64,000 nucleotides of DNA from an uncultured Eubacteriales bacterium (GTDB lineage Bacteria; Bacillota; Clostridia; Christensenellales; Aristaeellaceae). Below the pieces are notes generated by a model, which was not told the origin of the DNA, did not search any database, and was given only the letters and a program-made list of their open reading frames with translations. The position numbers were made by a program, and so were the translations under genes. Shown piece after piece: positions 20,057 to 46,628 of this stretch (its first letter is position 1; each line of letters opens with the position of its first letter). The stretch lies in contig CADCHI010000011.1 in the NCBI GenBank assembly GCA_902801165.1, forward strand, positions 1 through 64,000, read 5' to 3'.

Positions 20057-20274
20057 ACGAACAATTCACCTTTGAAGAGGGCATGCAGGAGCTGGAGCAG
20101 CTCGTCCAGACGCTGGAGTCCGGGCAGATGAGCCTGGAGGATTCCTTCAAGGCCTATGAGCGCGCGGCAAAGCTGCGGGACCGGCTGAACGCGATACTGG
20201 ATGAGAGCGACAAGCGGATACAGGTGCTCACCGAAGCGGGCGAACAGCCCCTGGATGCCGGGGAGGAACTATGA
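20053..20274 (+). CDS. xseB: exodeoxyribonuclease VII small subunit
   Basis: A 73-residue helical hairpin protein (FEEGMQELEQLVQTLESGQM, SLEDSFKAYERAAKL), the standard size and sequence of XseB. It begins on the xseA stop (ATGA) and ends overlapping the ispA start, so the three are translationally linked. Confidence 0.97.
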   Translation: MNEQFTFEEGMQELEQLVQTLESGQMSLEDSFKAYERAAKLRDRLNAILDESDKRIQVLTEAGEQPLDAGEEL

Positions 20275-21176
20275 AGACGTTGAAGGACTACGCTGGCATT
20301 GTCAACCGGCGGTTGGAGGAGATCCCGGCCGTCGTCGAGGAGAACCGCTGCGTGATCGGTGAAATGCCCTGGCTGCTCAGCCAGTCCATGCGCTACAGCG
20401 TCTCCGCGGGTGGAAAGCGCCTGCGCCCCAGCATGCTGCTGGCGGCGGTGGAGATGCTGGGCGGCGATGTGAACGCGGCCCTGGACTTTGCCTGCGCGGT
20501 GGAGATGATCCACACCTATTCCCTGATCCACGACGACCTGCCGGGCATGGACAACGACACGCTGCGGCGCGGGCGCCCCACGAACCACGTGGTATTCGGC
20601 GAGGGCCAGGCGATCCTCGCGGGCGACGGCCTGCTGAACTGCGCCTTTGAGACGATGCTCGCCGCGGCCTGCGCGCGCCCCGAGCGCGCCGCCGATTCCC
20701 TGCTGGCCATTCGGGAGATCGCCACGGGCGCCGGCGTCACGGGCATGATCGCAGGCCAGGTGATGGACCTGTACTGCGAGCACAACCGGGTGAGCACGCC
20801 GGAGGCGCTGGACTACATCCAGTACGGGAAGACGGCCTGCATGTTCATCTATCCCCTCAGGGCCGCCGCGCGGCTGTGCGGGGCGGACGAAGCGGATCTC
20901 GCGGCGCTGACGGAGTACGGACGCGCCTTCGGCTTGCTGTTCCAGGCGACCGACGATCTGCTGGACGTGGTGGGAACCCAGGACGACATGGGCAAGACGC
21001 TGGGCAAGGACGCCGAAAGCGGCAAGCTGACCTGCGTCTCCGCCTACGGCATCGACGGCACCCGAGCGCTGGTGGAGCGGCTCCATCGGCAGGCGCTGGA
21101 CGCCCTCGGACGCTTCCCGGGACGGGCGGGGTTCTTTGCCGACCTCGTGGATTCCATGGTGAACCGCACCAAATGA
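20271..21176 (+). CDS. ispA: polyprenyl synthetase, farnesyl diphosphate synthase type
   Basis: A 301-residue isoprenyl diphosphate synthase. The first Asp-rich motif is DDLPGMDND, the second DDLLDVVGTQDDMGK; GGKRLRP and the Lys of GKTLGKDAESGKLT are present. It condenses IPP with DMAPP and GPP in the cytoplasm. The gene overlaps xseB by 4 bases and is followed 19 bases later by dxs, which supplies the precursors, so the cluster is isoprenoid-linked. Confidence 0.94.
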   Translation: MKTLKDYAGIVNRRLEEIPAVVEENRCVIGEMPWLLSQSMRYSVSAGGKRLRPSMLLAAVEMLGGDVNAALDFACAVEMIHTYSLIHDDLPGMDNDTLRRGRPTNHVVFGEGQAILAGDGLLNCAFETMLAAACARPERAADSLLAIREIATGAGVTGMIAGQVMDLYCEHNRVSTPEALDYIQYGKTACMFIYPLRAAARLCGADEADLAALTEYGRAFGLLFQATDDLLDVVGTQDDMGKTLGKDAESGKLTCVSAYGIDGTRALVERLHRQALDALGRFPGRAGFFADLVDSMVNRTK

Positions 21177-21195
21177 CACATTGGAGAAACGATAC

Positions 21196-23076
21196 ATGCT
21201 TCTCGAACAGATACACGACCCATCTGACCTGAAAAAGCTGAATTTGAAGCAGTTGAAGCAGCTGGCGGGAGAACTGCGGCAGGAGATCATCCAGGTGGTG
21301 TCCGAAAGCGGAGGCCATTTGGCCTCCAACCTGGGCATGGTGGAGCTGACCCTCGCGCTGCATTACGTGCTGGATACCCCCGACGACAAGCTGTTCATGG
21401 ACGTGGGACATCAGTCCTACGCCCATAAGCTGCTCACGGGGCGCTATGAGCGCTTCAAGACGCTGCGCCAGCAGAACGGCCTCAGCGGCTTCCCTCAGCT
21501 CGAGGAGAGCGAATACGATTCCTTCACGGCGGGACACGCCTCCACGGCGATTTCCGCCGCGCTTGGCGTTGTGCGGACCCGCGACATCATGCATGGCGAG
21601 TACGAGGTGGTGGCCGTCGTCGGCGACGGCGCGCTCACCGGCGGCATGTGCTATGAGGCGCTGAACGACGCGGGGCAGAGCGGAACGCGCATGGTCGTCG
21701 TACTGAACGACAACGAGATGTCCATCGCCGAAAACGTCGGCGCGGTCAGCGGCTATCTGACCCGGCTGCGCCAGAGCAAGGGCTACCTGGCCGTCAAGCA
21801 GGGCGTCCGCAGGCACCTGGAAGGCAGAAACAGGTTCGCGACGGGCGTCTACCGCATGCTGGAAAAACTGCGCAACATGGTGCGCTCGCTGTTCGTCGAC
21901 GGCGAGTTCTTTGAAGCTCTGGGCTTCAAGTACATCGGACCCGTGGACGGACACGACCTGAAGCAGCTGATCCGGGTGCTCCGACGCACGCAGAACGACC
22001 ACCAGCCCCAGCTGATCCACGTGGTCACACAAAAGGGGCGCGGCTATGAGCCCGCGGAGGACCGTCCGGACGTCTACCACGGCGTCGCGCCGTTTTACAT
22101 CGATTCAGGCAAGCGCAAGGGCGAGTCGGCCACGACCTCCGGCAAGATCGTCGTCCGGCAGCTGCTGGAGCTGGCGCAGAACGACATTCGCATCTGCGCG
22201 ATCACCGCGGCGATGTCCGGGGGCACCTGCATGGACGCCTTCGAGGAGGCGTTCCCGGAGCGCTTCTTCGACGTGGGCATCGCGGAGGAGCACGCGGCGG
22301 TAATGGCCGCCGGCATGGCAAGCCAGGGCATGAAGCCCTATGTGGCGATCTATTCCACGTTCCTCCAGCGGTCCTACGACCAGATCCTGATGGAGATCTG
22401 CCGGAACGGACTGCCGGTGACCTTCCTGATCGACCGGGCCGGCCTGGTCGGCGAGGACGGCGCCACCCATCAGGGCGTGTTCGACCTGAGCTACCTGCGC
22501 ACCATGCCGGGGATGATCATCGCCGCGCCAAGGGATGTGCGGGATTTGAAGATGCTGGTCGACCTCAGCCAGGATGTCAACGCGCCTATGGCCATTCGCT
22601 ACCCCAAGAACTGCGAGGACATGGGCCCGGGCATCCAGAGTCAGCGGAGCTTCAAAATCGGCGAGTGGGAGCTGCTCAGCGCCGGCAAGGATGTCATCAT
22701 ATTCGCCGTGGGGCGCATGGTCTCTCTGGCGATGCAGGCCTGCATCGAGCTGATGGGCAAGGGCATCTCGGCGGGCGTAGTGGACGCGCGGTTCGTCGCG
22801 CCGATGGACGAGGGCATGCTGCTGGAGCAGGCAGGCAAGGTCCGCCTCGCGGTCACTGTGGAGGAGAACGTCCTTGCCGGGGGCTTCGGCGAAGGCGTGC
22901 TGGGCATTCTCGGCAGGGCCGGCATCCCGACGCCGGTGCTGACGCTGGGCGTGCCCAATCGCTTTATCAGCCATGCCACCATCGAGCAGCAGCTGGCCGA
23001 GTGCCGCCTGACGGCTGAGGACATCGCCCGCCGCATCCAAAAGCGCTATGCGCAGATCGAGGGGCGTGAACCATGA
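21196..23076 (+). CDS. dxs: 1-deoxy-D-xylulose-5-phosphate synthase
   Basis: 626 residues; first committed enzyme of the MEP pathway, making DXP from pyruvate and glyceraldehyde 3-phosphate with thiamine diphosphate. GHASTAISAALG, GDGALTGGMCYEALNDAG (TPP motif) and GPVDGHD are in the first domain, FFDVGIAEEHAAVMAAGMA in the pyrimidine-binding domain, and a transketolase C-terminal domain closes the protein. ATG 21196 has TTGGAGA 9 bases upstream; a TTG 15 bases earlier is inside that site. Overlaps tlyA by 4 bases. Confidence 0.97.
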   Translation: MLLEQIHDPSDLKKLNLKQLKQLAGELRQEIIQVVSESGGHLASNLGMVELTLALHYVLDTPDDKLFMDVGHQSYAHKLLTGRYERFKTLRQQNGLSGFPQLEESEYDSFTAGHASTAISAALGVVRTRDIMHGEYEVVAVVGDGALTGGMCYEALNDAGQSGTRMVVVLNDNEMSIAENVGAVSGYLTRLRQSKGYLAVKQGVRRHLEGRNRFATGVYRMLEKLRNMVRSLFVDGEFFEALGFKYIGPVDGHDLKQLIRVLRRTQNDHQPQLIHVVTQKGRGYEPAEDRPDVYHGVAPFYIDSGKRKGESATTSGKIVVRQLLELAQNDIRICAITAAMSGGTCMDAFEEAFPERFFDVGIAEEHAAVMAAGMASQGMKPYVAIYSTFLQRSYDQILMEICRNGLPVTFLIDRAGLVGEDGATHQGVFDLSYLRTMPGMIIAAPRDVRDLKMLVDLSQDVNAPMAIRYPKNCEDMGPGIQSQRSFKIGEWELLSAGKDVIIFAVGRMVSLAMQACIELMGKGISAGVVDARFVAPMDEGMLLEQAGKVRLAVTVEENVLAGGFGEGVLGILGRAGIPTPVLTLGVPNRFISHATIEQQLAECRLTAEDIARRIQKRYAQIEGREP

Positions 23077-40610: not shown

Positions 40611-40649
40611 CGAAAGCGTATGAAACGCTGAATGTTGGAGGATATACCC

Positions 40650-42035
40650 TTGGCAAAGACAAAGACGATTTATGTGTGCAGCGAGTGCGGCTACGAGACG
40701 CCCCGGTGGCTGGGAAAATGCCCCGACTGCGGCAGCTGGAACACGCTGGTGGAGCAGGAGGCGGCGCCGGCGTCCCGCCTGGATGAGAAGAAGATGAAGC
40801 GCGCTCCGGGCAGTGATGCCGCCGCGGTGCGGGTGCAAGACATCCCGGACGAGAACGTGGAGCGCCGCAGCAGCGGCATCGGCGAACTGGACCGCGTGCT
40901 CGGCGGCGGCGTGGTGGATGGCTCCCTGGTGCTGGTGGGAGGCGACCCCGGCATCGGCAAATCCACACTGCTGACCCAGCTGTGCGCCAACATGGCCGCC
41001 GACGGCGCCTGCGTGCTCTACGTGTCCGGCGAGGAATCCGCCCGACAGATCAAGATGCGGGCGCGCAGGATCGGCGCGTCGGGCTCCGGCTTCTATGTGC
41101 TGTCGGAAAACGACATGAACACCGTCGAGCGGCGCATGCAGGAGCTCTCGCCGTCCGTGATGGTGGTGGACTCCATTCAGACCATGTACCGCCCTGAGAT
41201 GGCCAGCGCCCCGGGCAGCGTGTCCCAGGTGCGGGAATCGGCCTCGATGCTGATGCGGCTGGCCAAGACCAGCGGTTGCAGCGTATTTCTGGTGGGCCAC
41301 GTGACCAAGGAGGGCGCCATTGCAGGCCCGCGCATACTGGAGCACATGGTGGACGCCGTGCTGTACTTTGAGGGCGACCGGCAGCACCAGTACCGGCTGC
41401 TGCGGGCTGTGAAGAACCGCTTCGGCTCCGTGAACGAGCTGGGCATGTTCGAGATGTCCGACCGTGGCATGATGGAGGTGGAGAACGCCAGCGAGGCGCT
41501 GCTGTCCGAGCGGGCCCACGATGCCAGCGGCTCCGTGGTCATGTGCGCGATGGAGGGCTCGCGGCCCCTGCTGACTGACGTTCAGGCGCTGGTCTCCACC
41601 ACGGTGTTCGGCAATCCCCGGCGCATGGCCAGCGGCGTGGACCAGGGGAGGCTGGCGCTGCTGCTCGCCGTGCTGGAAAAGCGGGTAGGGCTCAGGCTGT
41701 ACGACCAGGATGTGTACATCAACATCGCCGGCGGCATGTCCCTGACGGAGCCCGCCGCGGACCTGGCTCTCTGCGCCGCCATCGCATCGTCTCACCGAAA
41801 TCGCCCCATCAGCGGCAACTGGGCCGTGATGGGCGAGGTGGGCCTTGCAGGAGAAGTGCGCGCCATCAGCCAGGCGGAGCGCCGCGTGCTCGAGTGTGCC
41901 CGCCTCGGCTTTGACCACATCGTCGTTCCCAAGTTCAACCTGCGCAACCTTCGCGCGCCGGAGGGAGTAGAGCTGCTGGGTGCTGAGACGGTGGTGGACA
42001 TGATCGTCGGGCTCGGGCTGCATCGCAAGGGCTGA
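40650..42035 (+). CDS. radA: DNA repair protein RadA
   Basis: 461 residues: N-terminal C4 zinc finger (VCSECGYETPRWLGKCPDCG), RecA-like ATPase with GGDPGIGKSTLL and VMVVDSIQTM, the RadA-specific KNRFG motif, and a C-terminal Lon-like domain. It promotes branch migration in recombination. TTG 40650 gives the family start MAKTKTIYVC and has TTGGAGG upstream; ATG 40632 overlaps that site. A terminator hairpin follows. Confidence 0.96.
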   Translation: MAKTKTIYVCSECGYETPRWLGKCPDCGSWNTLVEQEAAPASRLDEKKMKRAPGSDAAAVRVQDIPDENVERRSSGIGELDRVLGGGVVDGSLVLVGGDPGIGKSTLLTQLCANMAADGACVLYVSGEESARQIKMRARRIGASGSGFYVLSENDMNTVERRMQELSPSVMVVDSIQTMYRPEMASAPGSVSQVRESASMLMRLAKTSGCSVFLVGHVTKEGAIAGPRILEHMVDAVLYFEGDRQHQYRLLRAVKNRFGSVNELGMFEMSDRGMMEVENASEALLSERAHDASGSVVMCAMEGSRPLLTDVQALVSTTVFGNPRRMASGVDQGRLALLLAVLEKRVGLRLYDQDVYINIAGGMSLTEPAADLALCAAIASSHRNRPISGNWAVMGEVGLAGEVRAISQAERRVLECARLGFDHIVVPKFNLRNLRAPEGVELLGAETVVDMIVGLGLHRKG

Positions 42036-42276: not shown

Positions 42277-42301
42277 GGTGCTGTCGCTGGGAGGTGCGCG
42301 T

Positions 42302-43144
42302 TTGTTCGGCTATATCATCACAAACCACGAGACGCTTTCCGAGGAGCGCCAGCAGCGCTTCCGCGCCGCGTACTGCGGCCTGTGCCGGACGCTGCGCCAG
42401 CGCCACGGCCTGAAGGGCAGCGCCACCATCAGCTATGACATGACATTTCTGGCGCTTCTGCTCAACGCGCTCTACGAGCCGGAGGAGAAGCAGGGCAGGG
42501 AGCGCTGCGTCGCGCACCCTGCAAAGGCCCACGACTATTTCGTTTCCCCGGTGATGGACTACGTCTCGGACATGAACCTCGCGTTGGCCTACTACAAATG
42601 CCTCGACAACTGGGAGGATGACCGAAATCTGATGTCCGCGGCGGAAAGCGGCCTGCTGAAAAGCGCCTATGAGCGCGTAAAGAAGGCGTGGCCAGATAAG
42701 TGCCGCGCGATCGAGAACTGGCTCAGGGAGGTCCACACCTTTGAACGGGAGGGGAAGATGGAGATCGACCTGCCCGTCAACGCCACGGGGCGGCTGCTGG
42801 GCGAGTTGTTTGCCTGGCCGGAGGGCGGGGAATGGACGGAGGTTCTGCGAACCGTCGGAGACGGCCTTGGACGGTTCGTCTACTTCATGGATGCCTACGA
42901 GGACCTGCCGGAGGACGCGCGCAAGGGGCGTTTCAACGCCCTCAAGCCCCTTCGGGACCGCGAGGATTACGAGGAAATGTGCCGGTCCGCGATGTCGATG
43001 ATGCTGGCGGATGCCGCCGAAGCCTTTGAGACGCTGCCGATCGTTCAGGACTACGAACTACTCTGCAACGTACTGTATTCCGGCGTGTGGAGCAAATACG
43101 CGCTGCTGCAAAAGCGCCGCGAACAGAAAAAAGGAGTAAAATAA
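42302..43144 (+). CDS. DUF5685-family protein
   Basis: A 280-residue, mainly helical, soluble protein. The N-terminus [12 protein letters not shown] is followed by [13 protein letters not shown] (Cys25, Cys28), [19 protein letters not shown], a later Cys-His segment ([13 protein letters not shown]) and DNWEDDRN. The acidic D-x-x-D-like motifs and helix pattern faintly recall trans-isoprenyl synthases, but I do not claim that activity. I recognise it as DUF5685, common in clostridia and of unknown function. TTG 42302 has GGGAGG 7 bases upstream. It overlaps the next gene, a J-domain protein, by one base, so they act together. Confidence 0.75.
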
Positions 43145-43839
43145 TGCAGGATCCCTATCGCGTGCTGGGCATTTCGCCGGAGGCCACGGACGAGGAAGTC
43201 AAGAAGGCCTATCGCGCGCTGGCCAAGAAATACCACCCGGACGTCAACAACGGCTCCGCCGATGCCGAGGCGCACATGAAGCAGATCAACGACGCCTACA
43301 CGACGATCATGAAGATGCGCCGCGGCGGGGCGTCCAGCGGCTACGGCAGCTCGACCGGGTATGGCGGCAGCGGCGGGTATGGTTACGGCGGATACGGCGC
43401 GGGCGGCTACAATGCCGGCTATGGCGCGGGCTATGGCGGCTCCGCCAATGCCAATCCACGCATGCAGGCCGTTCGGAACTACATCCGCGCGGGGCATTTC
43501 CAGGAGGCCATGCACGTGCTGGAGGACATCTCCGAGCGCAACGCCGAATGGTACTACCTCTGTGGCGAGGCCAGCCTGGGCCTGGGCAACCGGGTCGCGG
43601 CGTTGAACTACGCTCGCCAGGCCGTCAGCATGGATCCCAGCAGCTTTGAATACCGGGCGCTGCTGAGCCGCTTGGAGGGCGGCGCGAACTTCTATCAAGC
43701 CAACGGCGCGGCGAGGGGCTTTGGAATGCCCACCGTGCTCTGCGGGAATCCGCTGCTCAGCTGCTGCGCAATCAATCTGCTCTGCAACCTGCTGTGCAAC
43801 TGCTGCGGAGGCGGAGGCTTCTACGGCGGATGGCGCTGA
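43144..43839 (+). CDS. J-domain protein with Gly/Tyr linker, repeat helices and Cys-rich tail
   Basis: 231 residues. Residues 1-58 are a J-domain with the HPD motif at 31-33 ([12 protein letters not shown]), which would stimulate a DnaK partner. Residues 62-100 are a Gly/Tyr repeat linker, 105-190 a TPR-like helical region ([32 protein letters not shown]), and the last 30 residues hold seven Cys in a hydrophobic context ([20 protein letters not shown]), perhaps a membrane or metal-binding tail. It is not DnaJ proper: no zinc-finger or substrate-binding domains. ATG 43144 follows AAAGGAG and shares a base with the DUF5685 stop. Confidence 0.9.
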
Positions 43840-43903
43840 TGCCGCCCCGGACAGGTCGTGGGTTGATCGTCCGGAAGAACATTTGAAGACGGGAGGAATT
43901 TGA

Positions 43904-44317
43904 ATGTCCTTTATGCAGAAGCTCAGGGAAGGATTCAGGAAGCTGATGACCGGCCGCCGCGGCGCGGACGAGCTGTCGCTGGCGCTTTTGATCGGCGGCG
44001 TGGTGCTCTCCATGCTGGGGAGCCTGCTGCGCTTCGGCCTGCTGAACCTGCTCGGCCTGGCGTGCTATATCATCTGCCTCTGGCGCATGCTGTCCAGGAA
44101 CCTGGAGAAGCGCTACCAGGAGAACGTGAAGTTCACGACAGCCTGGCGCAAGGCGAGTGCCAGCGTCCGGCAGTTCATCAACCGCATGAAAAATATGCGC
44201 AAATACAAGTATTTCAAGTGCCCGGAGTGCCACGCGCTGCTGCGCCTGCCCAGGAAGGTGGGCGAGGTGACGGTCACCTGCGGCAAGTGCCGCCACGCCT
44301 TCAAGCAGAAGGCATAA
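43904..44317 (+). CDS. small membrane protein with C-terminal zinc ribbon
   Basis: 137 residues: basic N-terminus, two closely spaced hydrophobic helices (LSLALLIGGVVLSMLGSLL and LLNLLGLACYIICLWRML, residues 24-63), a basic helical linker, and a zinc ribbon with Cys106-x2-Cys109 and Cys126-x2-Cys129 (FKCPECHALL, VTCGKCRHAF). GGGAGGAATTTG precedes the ATG. Not assigned to a named family. Its place 64 bases after the J-domain gene suggests one operon. The ribbon might bind nucleic acid or a protein partner at the membrane; that is a guess. Confidence 0.8.
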   Translation: MSFMQKLREGFRKLMTGRRGADELSLALLIGGVVLSMLGSLLRFGLLNLLGLACYIICLWRMLSRNLEKRYQENVKFTTAWRKASASVRQFINRMKNMRKYKYFKCPECHALLRLPRKVGEVTVTCGKCRHAFKQKA

Positions 44318-44322
44318 AGCGA

Positions 44323-44351
44323 TTGTGCTTTGCCGGAAAATCTGCTAAAAT
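44323..44351 (+). promoter_or_regulatory. promoter for the DUF6062 gene
   Basis: TTGTGC (44323-44328) and TAAAAT (44346-44351) are 17 bases apart with TG before the -10; the ATG is 24 bases downstream. Confidence 0.6.
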
Positions 44352-44374
44352 AGACGGCAGGGAGCGTGAACGCC

Positions 44375-45130
44375 ATGAAGCAGCACATCGATACCGCGCC
44401 GATTTGGGAGAGCTACAGGCAGGATTGCGAATGCCCGCTGTGCCTTCTGAACACGAAGGTCGAGGCGTCCAGCGTGGACTATTTTCTCGGCGAATCCGTG
44501 ATGGAGCCCAGCCAGCGGGTCGAGGTCAACAAGAAGGGCTTCTGCGCCGGACACTTCAAGATGATGTACGACGCGGGCAACCGCCTGGGCCTGGCGCTGA
44601 TGACCCATACATATATGAAGGAAACCATCGAGACGCTCCGGGAAAATGCCAAGCGCGCGAAGGACGCCGCGGCCGCAGAGGCTGGAAAGCCGATCTTCAA
44701 GCGCCTGGGCGGACAGAAGGGCGCGGGGCTCGCGGAGGCCGCCGGCGAGGTGCGGGACCTGGAGACGCGGTGCCTGCTGTGCGAGCGCCTCAGCCAGAAC
44801 ATGGAGCGTTATGTCTACACGCTGCTGTACATGTACAAGCACGAGGCGGAGTTCCCGAAGCTGTTTTCAGAGTCAAAGGGCATGTGCCTGAAGCACTACG
44901 CCCAGGCGCTGGAGATGGCACCGAAGCACCTGTCCGGCGATGTGTTGAAGAAATTCGTGGAAACGCTGACGGACATCGAGGTGAAGAACTTCGAGCGGCT
45001 CTCCGGCGAGCTGGAATGGTTTACCAACAAGTTTGATTATCGCAACCAGGACAAGCCCTGGGGCACCAGCAAGGATGCCGTGAAGCGCTCCGTCAACAAG
45101 CTGAGCCACCAGGTGGTCGTGGAGGACTGA
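44375..45130 (+). CDS. DUF6062-family Cys-rich protein
   Basis: 251 residues, helical. Two similar metal-site-like sets can be seen: Cys20-x2-Cys23 then Cys57-x2-His60, and Cys133-x2-Cys136 then Cys171-x2-His174, with 33-34 residues between the halves of each set. This suggests internal duplication of a four-ligand site. I recognise it as DUF6062, whose function is unknown. ATG 44375 is preferred over GTG 44366 because AGGGAG has normal spacing only to the former. It has its own promoter and is followed 30 bases later by another Cys-rich gene. Confidence 0.75.
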   Translation: MKQHIDTAPIWESYRQDCECPLCLLNTKVEASSVDYFLGESVMEPSQRVEVNKKGFCAGHFKMMYDAGNRLGLALMTHTYMKETIETLRENAKRAKDAAAAEAGKPIFKRLGGQKGAGLAEAAGEVRDLETRCLLCERLSQNMERYVYTLLYMYKHEAEFPKLFSESKGMCLKHYAQALEMAPKHLSGDVLKKFVETLTDIEVKNFERLSGELEWFTNKFDYRNQDKPWGTSKDAVKRSVNKLSHQVVVED

Positions 45131-45160
45131 CGGGAGACCGTCAGGGGAGGCATTTACCGT

Positions 45161-45415
45161 ATGACGAAATACTGTGTGCTTGATGAGACCAAGGTCTGCG
45201 ACGATTGCGGAGAGTGCAACCGCTGCGACCTGAACCCGGACAAGATCTGCGACAACTGCATGGAATGCCTGAAGACCGGCGCGGATTACAGGGCCATCGA
45301 GATCGACGAAATCATCGAAGACGGCACCGCGTCGGAGACATACGAACAGCTCCGGCAGGATCTCAGGGAGATCGCCGAAGATGATACGCCGTTTGACTGC
45401 TTTAAAGAGGAATAA
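45161..45415 (+). CDS. small protein with CxxC arrays
   Basis: 84 residues. Cys13, 16, 19 and 22 and Cys30, 33 and 36 form two arrays with two-residue spacing (VCDDCGECNRCDLNPDKICD, then NCMECL); Cys5 and Cys80 are extra. The C-terminal half is acidic and helical. The pattern could bind zinc or an iron-sulfur cluster. It is 30 bases after the DUF6062 gene behind AGGGGAGG. I do not recognise a named family. Confidence 0.8.
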   Translation: MTKYCVLDETKVCDDCGECNRCDLNPDKICDNCMECLKTGADYRAIEIDEIIEDGTASETYEQLRQDLREIAEDDTPFDCFKEE

Positions 45416-45557: not shown

Positions 45558-46628
45558 ATGCCTGCTTACGCTGAAGAACGCGCCAAGGAGCTTCAACTAT
45601 TGACGCGCTCCATACTTCGTGATTTGCCAGGCGTCTGCTTTGATTTTATCAACGCCATTGATTCAACCACGCAGCCGCTGACGCGCTATGCCTATGCCTG
45701 CGACCTCAAGCTGTTCTTCAGCTACCTGACGACTGAACACCCGAGGTTTTCCGGCAAGGCGCCCTTTGAGCTCGACGCCGCCGATCTCAGCAAGGTTACC
45801 TCCAGGGACATCTACATGTACCTGGACTACCTCGGCCTGTACGTCAAGGACGACGTCGAATATTCCAACGAAAATTTGGGCAAAATGCGCAAACTCTCAT
45901 CTTTACGTAGTTTTTACAAATTTCTCTACAAGAACGGCTATATCGACGCTGATCCAGCCGCGCTGGTGGACATGCCCAAGCGCCGTCAAAAGCCGATCAT
46001 TCGCCTGGAAATCGACGAGGTCGCGCGCATGCTGGATTTGGTGGAGTCCGGCGACAAGCTATCGGAGCGCCAGAAAAAGTACAATGACCACACAAAAGCC
46101 CGGGATTTGGCCATACTGACCCTGTTTTTGGGCACTGGAATCCGCGTCAGCGAGCTGGTGGGCATCAATATTGACGATATCGACTTCTCCCTGAACGCCT
46201 TTCTCGTGACCCGTAAGGGCGGCAATCAGGCCATACTGTACTTCCCGGACGAGGTTGCCGACGTATTGAAGGACTACTTGAAGCTGCGCCGCGAGATGAC
46301 CGCGCTGCCCGGCAACGAGGACGCGCTGTTCCTGTCTCTGCAGAACAAGCGCATTTCCGTCCGCGCCGTGCAGCTGATGGTCAAGAAATACGCCACGCTG
46401 GCCGCACCGCTGAAGAAGCACCTCAGTCCCCACAAGCTGCGCAGCACCTTCGGCACCAATCTCTACCACGAGACCGGCGACATCTACCTGGTGGCGGATG
46501 TGCTGGGCCACAGCGACGTGAACACCACGCGCAAGCACTATGCCGCCATGTCCGACGATCGGCGGCGGATGGCGGCGCAAAAGGTACACCTGCGGGAGGA
46601 TGCCCCGGAGGATTCGCGGGACGAATGA
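45558..46628 (+). CDS. tyrosine recombinase, XerS-like
   Basis: 356 residues, the length of streptococcal XerS. N-terminal SAM-like core-binding domain (LTRYAYACDLKLFFSYLT), then the catalytic domain with Arg196 (GTGIRVSEL), Lys220 (RKGGN), His292 and Arg295 (SPHKLRSTFGT), His318 (LGHSDVN) and Tyr328 (KHYAAM): all six residues are present. It most likely resolves chromosome dimers, though a role in integration of a mobile element cannot be excluded. No integrase-associated genes flank it. A strong terminator follows. Confidence 0.88.
   Translation: MPAYAEERAKELQLLTRSILRDLPGVCFDFINAIDSTTQPLTRYAYACDLKLFFSYLTTEHPRFSGKAPFELDAADLSKVTSRDIYMYLDYLGLYVKDDVEYSNENLGKMRKLSSLRSFYKFLYKNGYIDADPAALVDMPKRRQKPIIRLEIDEVARMLDLVESGDKLSERQKKYNDHTKARDLAILTLFLGTGIRVSELVGINIDDIDFSLNAFLVTRKGGNQAILYFPDEVADVLKDYLKLRREMTALPGNEDALFLSLQNKRISVRAVQLMVKKYATLAAPLKKHLSPHKLRSTFGTNLYHETGDIYLVADVLGHSDVNTTRKHYAAMSDDRRRMAAQKVHLREDAPEDSRDE

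Follow-up and report, generated by a model that had tools for sequence, protein, structure and literature searches.

In a 64,000-nucleotide stretch of DNA from an uncultured Eubacteriales bacterium of the Aristaeellaceae (contig CADCHI010000011.1, positions 1 to 64,000; hereafter the window), a gene of the family DUF5685 (42302..43144, + strand) is directly followed by the gene of a J-domain protein with a Cys-rich tail (43144..43839, + strand). We found that DUF5685 has the predicted fold and conserved acidic motifs of an isoprenoid synthase, that it is paired with a protein whose constant feature is the Cys tail, and that in one genus lacking DUF5685 the tail is replaced. The explanation that we tentatively favor is that DUF5685 modifies the Cys tail of its partner, S-prenylation being the likeliest reaction, and that the chaperone is thereby anchored to the membrane. 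The window's DUF5685 gene has a TTG start, with GGAGG at 42290-42294, and its product matches PF18937 with an E-value of 6.6e-88 (295.1 bits, against a curated cut-off of 26.7). It overlaps the next gene by one base at 43144 (TAATG), as a first-pass annotation of this DNA had reported. The protein encoded there has a J domain (DnaJ, E 1.5e-19) with its HPD motif, a Gly-rich linker, tetratricopeptide repeats (TPR_19, E 4.9e-7) and a hydrophobic C-terminal tail (43735..43836, +), in which seven Cys (C200-C221) were counted by eye within the last 34 residues.

Two Asp-rich motifs resembling those of squalene/phytoene synthases were spotted in the DUF5685 sequence, and the fold was proposed before the structure search. 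An AlphaFold2 model of DUF5685, made from 77 sequences, has a predicted local distance difference test score (pLDDT) of 95.5 and a predicted template modeling score (pTM) of 0.92. We compared this model with the PDB using Foldseek (E ≤ 10) and examined the best 50 of 338 matches, which are isoprenoid synthases or prenyltransferases by their titles or, in a few cases, by name (EvAS, Rv2173 and an archaeal lipid synthase, which we take to be isoprenoid enzymes); two of the 50 are presumably membrane UbiA-type enzymes. The top match among them is MoeN5, the best E-value is 6.6e-3 and the probability reaches 1.00. By hhalign, DUF5685 matched a profile of three squalene/phytoene synthases with a P of 1.6e-4, with the second motif aligned; in a rerun the score was 35.4, whereas 60 block-shuffled controls reached at most 23.1. 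DUF6062 and the TPR-tail family gave P of 0.61 and 0.3 as controls, and the comparison of polyprenyl synthases with squalene/phytoene synthases, used as a yardstick, gave 0.22. Sequence searches of the PDB with the window protein (P0001) or its profile (A4) gave no useful match (best E-values 1.2 and 0.39, respectively).

The first Asp-rich motif, D102xxxD106 (42605..42619, +), lies at the C-terminal end of helix 83-107 of the model, and the second, D197xxxD201xxxD205 (42890..42916, +), at the C-terminal end of helix 179-208, with a spacing that we take to be that of the NSE/DTE triads. The metal motifs of class I isoprenoid synthases are located at such helix ends, and the predicted fold would place the two acidic helices face to face. 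In an alignment of 199 rows, which represent 198 distinct sequences because the window is included twice, D102, E148, D197 and D201 are found in all rows, D106 in 195 with Asn in the other four, and D205 in 197 with Asn in two. We consider it highly probable, on the strength of the model, that DUF5685 adopts the class I isoprenoid-synthase fold. A further set of residues (42374..42517, +), C25xxC28 in a helix and C69xxH72 in a beta hairpin (residues 63-81), could bind a metal: C25, C28 and C69 are present in each of the 197 rows with a letter at these positions, and residue 72 is His in 153 of the 199.

The pairing of DUF5685 with the downstream gene was surveyed in two sets of loci. The close set consists of the best 80 of at least 579 DUF5685 relatives found by an alignment scan of genome contigs, and it is biased to near relatives because the best matches were kept; the class-wide set consists of 59 further regions picked from a survey of the window's class, at least four of them from genomes already seen. 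A J-domain gene follows DUF5685 in 80/80 close loci and in 56/59 class-wide regions, and a simpler look at 31 loci with 1.5 kb flanks found it in 27, all four misses belonging to one genus. The stop of DUF5685 and the start of the J-domain gene overlap in 98 of 110 measurable pairs, with the starts being approximate.

The same association was seen across genomes. DUF5685 occurs above its family cut-off in 157 of 291 sampled genomes of the window's class, and also in some of the phylum's other lineages. When co-occurrence was counted over the 291 genomes (E 1e-3 for the two Pfam families, DUF5685 and DUF6062, and 1e-6 for the profile of the TPR-Cys-tail protein), DUF5685 and the TPR-Cys-tail protein were found together in 148, DUF5685 alone in 11, the partner alone in five and neither in 127, an odds ratio of 342 uncorrected for phylogeny. 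These counts include weak matches in three genomes: G222, scored as having both with a DUF5685 E-value of 2.3e-4 and a TPR match (L326) lacking a tail like the others; G166, whose DUF5685 match is weak (E 8.3e-4); and G022, whose TPR match is a 484-amino-acid (aa) TPR protein devoid of a Cys tail (L319) and likely false. Among the 11 DUF5685-only genomes, G033 and G188 carry a J-domain protein with Cys and no TPR, G139, G156 and G248 have a contig end within about 90 bases of DUF5685, G065 and G093 show no partner, and G024, G051, G166 and G262 gave no partner match at E ≤ 0.05 in a search by profile only. The five partner-only genomes comprise the likely false match of G022, a protein with a hydrophobic tail (G090, discussed below), two genomes of 65% and 61% completeness (G099 and G133) and the unexplained G233. 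Chance adjacency of the two genes was rejected in view of the 80/80 and 56/59 loci together with this co-occurrence.

We then compared the partners themselves, counting Cys in 79 proteins of the close set (the truncated L112 was dropped) and 55 of the class-wide set (the truncated L207 and a short piece from L172 were dropped). The last 40 residues hold 4-10 Cys in 79/79 and 4-11 in 55/55 proteins, and the median number of Cys elsewhere in the Cys-tail J-domain proteins is 0. The tail ends in Cys in 40/79 and 42/55 proteins and in CysCys in 19/79 and 35/55; a Cys at the CaaX position is found in only 11/79 and 10/55 tails. The HPD motif is present in 79/79 and 52/55. A 25-residue profile of the tail matched 73 places in 71 of 196 class genomes, 69 of which carry DUF5685; the other two are the incomplete genomes G099 and G133.

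The domains ahead of the tail are much less constant. In genus g103, no J-domain gene stands beside DUF5685 in the five loci examined (L011, L013, L016, L021 and L165), and the tail proteins found in five genomes of that genus (L225-L229) consist of TPR and tail with no J domain (the J domain was checked by Pfam in L226); in four of the five genomes the tail protein lies on the contig of DUF5685, about 9-19 kb away. L308 has a tail protein with neither a J domain nor a Pfam TPR match, L306, L318 and L320 combine a J domain and a tail with no TPR (Pfam check in L318), and L314, L316 and L317 encode short tail proteins with weak TPR matches where checked (L314). In L311, a Cys- and His-rich tail is fused to DUF5685 itself. 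Outside the window's class, 18 DUF5685 loci of the phylum were compared: a tail protein is encoded next to DUF5685 in 14, the tail is fused in one and no tail was seen in three. Both plasmid-borne DUF5685 loci have a tail partner. The constant feature of the partner is hence the Cys tail and not the J domain, because some partners lacking the J domain keep the tail, and DUF5685 is very probably tied functionally to this tail.

A natural replacement of the tail was found in the family of G090. The TPR-tail profile matched in 19 of its 40 genomes, only three of which carry DUF5685. All three proteins accompanied by DUF5685 have six-Cys tails, while the 16 proteins found without it, all from a single genus (16 of the 19 genomes in it), are devoid of Cys over their last 50 residues and end in a hydrophobic stretch of about 27 residues, with a peak Kyte-Doolittle value of 1.8-2.2 over 19 residues. 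These orthologues have an intact HPD motif and a transmembrane/zinc-ribbon gene in the same locus in 16/16 cases, and the one pair of Cys-tail and hydrophobic-tail proteins that was compared is 42% identical over 195 residues. Because a hydrophobic segment takes the place of the Cys tail in a genus devoid of DUF5685, the results suggest that the tail functions in membrane anchoring, its Cys being retained together with DUF5685.

Based on these observations, we infer a mechanism that includes catalysis by DUF5685, the prenyl nature of the modification, the chain length of the donor and the cellular role. DUF5685 would act on one dedicated protein partner, recognized through its C-terminal Cys-rich tail, and would bind a prenyl diphosphate via Mg2+ held by D102/D106 and D197/D201/D205. 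It would then ionize this substrate and pass the prenyl group to at least one Cys of the tail. The resulting lipid anchor would put the partner, here the J-domain/TPR co-chaperone, at the membrane, perhaps beside the transmembrane/zinc-ribbon protein, and the Hsp70 work would be done there. Genes of prenyl-diphosphate supply are present in the window itself, a polyprenyl synthetase gene (PF00348) at 20271-21176 and, directly after it, dxs at 21181-23076. That DUF5685 S-prenylates the tail is plausible, and we hold this part of the proposal with appreciable doubt.

Several results weigh against this proposal. Among the 50 Foldseek matches, no E-value falls below 0.001, template modeling scores are about 0.27-0.59 and root-mean-square deviations are 5.9-18.6; DUF5685 has no Pfam match to PF00348 or PF00494 at E ≤ 1, and its profile barely beats shuffled controls against 19 polyprenyl synthases (22.6 versus 21.6). 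Prenylation leaves the conserved Cys of DUF5685 itself unexplained, and tails with up to 11 Cys, rigidly spaced in one clade, would also be suited to binding metal. The hydrophobicity of the Cys tails is only moderate (median peak Kyte-Doolittle values of 1.49 and 1.28), and the swap to a hydrophobic end was seen in a single genus and is probably one event. Some genomes also depart from the pairing: no tail partner was found in the inspected DNA of L312, L313 and L315, in which DUF5685 is divergent or partial, or in that of G065 and G093, in which it carries D106N; and G233 has a degenerate J-domain protein with five Cys near its end and no DUF5685 match. The D106N change is also found in G037, of the same genus as G065 and G093, in which the partner lies far from DUF5685, and in L267, which has a normal tail partner in its region (L307).

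The main alternative is that the tail is a metal or Fe-S module and that DUF5685, which has a C25/C28/C69 site of its own, serves in the maturation of this module or in delivery to it. The invariance of that site, the very dense Cys of the tail, the abundance of Cys and His in the fused L311 tail, and the rigid 25-residue spacing with conserved acidic residues in one large clade (25 sequences) all point in this direction. However, this alternative does not account for the predicted isoprenoid-synthase fold and the Asp motifs of DUF5685, nor for the hydrophobic segment that replaces the tail in the genus lacking DUF5685, and the tails of the window's nearer relatives differ widely in the number and spacing of their Cys; we regard it as unlikely. 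The first-pass annotation had proposed that five adjacent genes form a metal- or redox-linked protein quality-control module. The five genes do stand in a row here and in 9/80 close loci, but the survey largely refutes such a module: DUF6062, one of the five, is present in only 1/59 class-wide DUF5685 regions, its genome co-occurrence with DUF5685 is weak, and the predicted fold of DUF5685 with its two Asp-rich motifs makes metal or redox chemistry not the best reading, so that this proposal is now hardly credible. A plain DnaK co-chaperone module centered on the J domain was likewise rejected, since the J domain is lost in some lineages.

The fold and motifs of DUF5685 would also suit an enzyme that makes or consumes a free isoprenoid, with the tail protein as a membrane-bound helper that stabilizes or positions it. 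In L311, DUF5685 has a polyprenyl synthetase gene (PF00348, E 2.8e-49) two genes downstream, and the top structural match, MoeN5, acts on a phosphoglycolipid, according to the accessible part of one report (PMC7839719). Such an enzyme has no obvious need for a dedicated partner whose Cys tail stays constant while the domains change, and we judge this possibility distinctly unlikely. Very unlikely, in our view, is that DUF5685 places another group, such as an acyl chain, on the tail, or passes it on to a second modifying enzyme: the predicted DUF5685 fold is not known from acyltransferases, and the Asp-rich motifs fit diphosphate chemistry, even though the tail resembles the cysteine strings of eukaryotes, which are S-palmitoylated according to the portions available of two papers (PMC4447612, PMC10903463). 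Finally, prenylation of Trp, as in ComQ, was rejected as Trp is not conserved in the tails, being present in the last 40 residues of only 37/79 and 13/55 partners.

S-prenylation of the tail, the reading that we prefer, can be set beside several known systems. DUF5685 shares with the squalene/phytoene synthases (PF00494) and polyprenyl synthetases (PF00348) the predicted fold and the DxxxD motifs on two helices, and with PF00494 members also the profile similarity at the second motif; unlike both families it lacks a Pfam match to them, has a Cys/His beta hairpin and has a protein partner encoded next door. Eukaryotic farnesyl and geranylgeranyl transferases resemble it in the proposed outcome, lipidation of C-terminal Cys, while their fold is unrelated to that predicted for DUF5685. 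Also comparable are the peptide prenyltransferases of the trans-isoprenyl diphosphate synthase (trans-IDS)-like type, such as ComQ, the P domain of ChrPC and PalQ, which belong to the isoprenoid-synthase superfamily and modify a ribosomal polypeptide; in the accessible part of a 2026 review, all characterized members target Trp (PMC13290415). In contrast to their Trp acceptor, the DUF5685 partner, mostly a co-chaperone, has a Cys tail as its constant feature. On the side of the partner, the cysteine string protein (CSP/DNAJC5), as described in the source portions available, is likewise a J-domain protein with a Cys-rich segment that directs it to membranes. CSP is eukaryotic and has 12-15 palmitoylated Cys, whereas the bacterial protein has seven in the window and 4-11 in relatives, placed at the C terminus, and usually has TPR and a dedicated neighbor gene. 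A dedicated bacterial protein-Cys prenylation, in which DUF5685 lipidates the tail of a J-domain co-chaperone to yield a bacterial analogue of the cysteine string protein, is plausible, and we put it forward with reserve. Among the entries listed by the literature searches, none concerned a bacterial cysteine-string J-domain protein or bacterial Cys prenylation. DUF5685 was mentioned in one paper, once, within a list (PMC9403866), and DUF6062, PF18937 and PF19538 in none, most subscription journals lying outside the search.

Around the pair, the window holds a RadA-like gene at 40632-42035 (+), a name that we take from its domain matches, and, downstream of the J-domain gene, the three remaining genes of the proposed five. 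All five open reading frames are where the first-pass annotation had placed them, with the motifs that it had listed, and the Cys positions are conserved. The first of the three (43904..44317, +; P0003) encodes a membrane protein with hydrophobic stretches, seen by eye, followed by a C-terminal zinc ribbon (CPxC...CxxC) whose Cys are present in each of the 58 rows with a letter there (of 59). It is a looser, third member of the module: a similar gene is found in 58/80 close loci (33 upstream and 20 downstream on the same strand, five upstream on the other strand), at most 400 bp away from DUF5685 or the J-domain gene in 57 of the 58, and in 9/59 class-wide regions.

The other two are lineage-specific neighbors. 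The DUF6062 gene (PF19538, E 1.3e-84; 44375..45130, +, or from a GTG start at 44366) encodes two CxxC...CxxH sites, C20xxC23/C57xxH60 and C133xxC136/C171xxH174, conserved in 14/14 sequences; its AlphaFold2 model is poor (pLDDT 64.7, from 10 close sequences). The next gene (45161..45415, +) encodes an 84-aa CxxC-array protein with no Pfam or NCBIfam match at E ≤ 1, whose C13, C16, C19, C22, C30, C33 and C36 are conserved in 10/10 close relatives. Both genes are found near DUF5685 in only 9/80 close loci, those of the nearest relatives (DUF5685 59-70% identical). Sequence of at least 2.5 kb is available downstream of DUF5685 in 58 of the 71 close loci lacking DUF6062 and in 56 of the 58 class-wide regions lacking it. 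DUF6062 occurs in 155/291 class genomes, and its co-occurrence with DUF5685 is weak (100 genomes with both, 59 with DUF5685 and 55 with DUF6062 alone, 77 with neither; odds ratio 2.4, uncorrected for phylogeny). The 84-aa family occurs in 46/196 class genomes, and its gene lies far from DUF5685 in two complete genomes compared by eye (G025 and G136). The five genes are not one module, because DUF6062 and the 84-aa gene join only in the closest relatives; the conserved unit is DUF5685 followed by the Cys-tail J-domain protein. A phage-integrase-family gene (45558-46628, +) comes next.

Three further observations were made in the loci inspected. A membrane protein of about 170-195 aa is encoded just downstream of the tail protein in L306, L308, L314, L316, L318 (where it is cut short) and L320; these proteins look similar by eye, and one has a weak DUF2232 match below the cut-off. 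Two genomes of the f44 family encode a J-like paralogue with a degenerate HPD motif, and a Gly/Asn-rich C terminus that contains only two Cys (L231:2018-2569 and L238:1622-2140). In Pusillibacter faecalis, DUF5685 and the J-domain gene follow cdaA, a CdaR-family gene and an RseC-family gene (L298) on NZ_AP023421.1, a 504-kb record annotated as a plasmid.

Taken together, these results predict a fold for the unstudied family DUF5685, point to its likely active site and identify a one-to-one partner. If the proposed reaction is correct, Cys would join the residues modified by trans-IDS-like enzymes, so far only Trp in the accessible part of the review cited above (PMC13290415). Bacteria would then share with eukaryotes the use of a cysteine string to hold an Hsp70 co-chaperone at membranes, and the genus with a hydrophobic end in place of the Cys tail provides natural variants that make the anchor idea testable.

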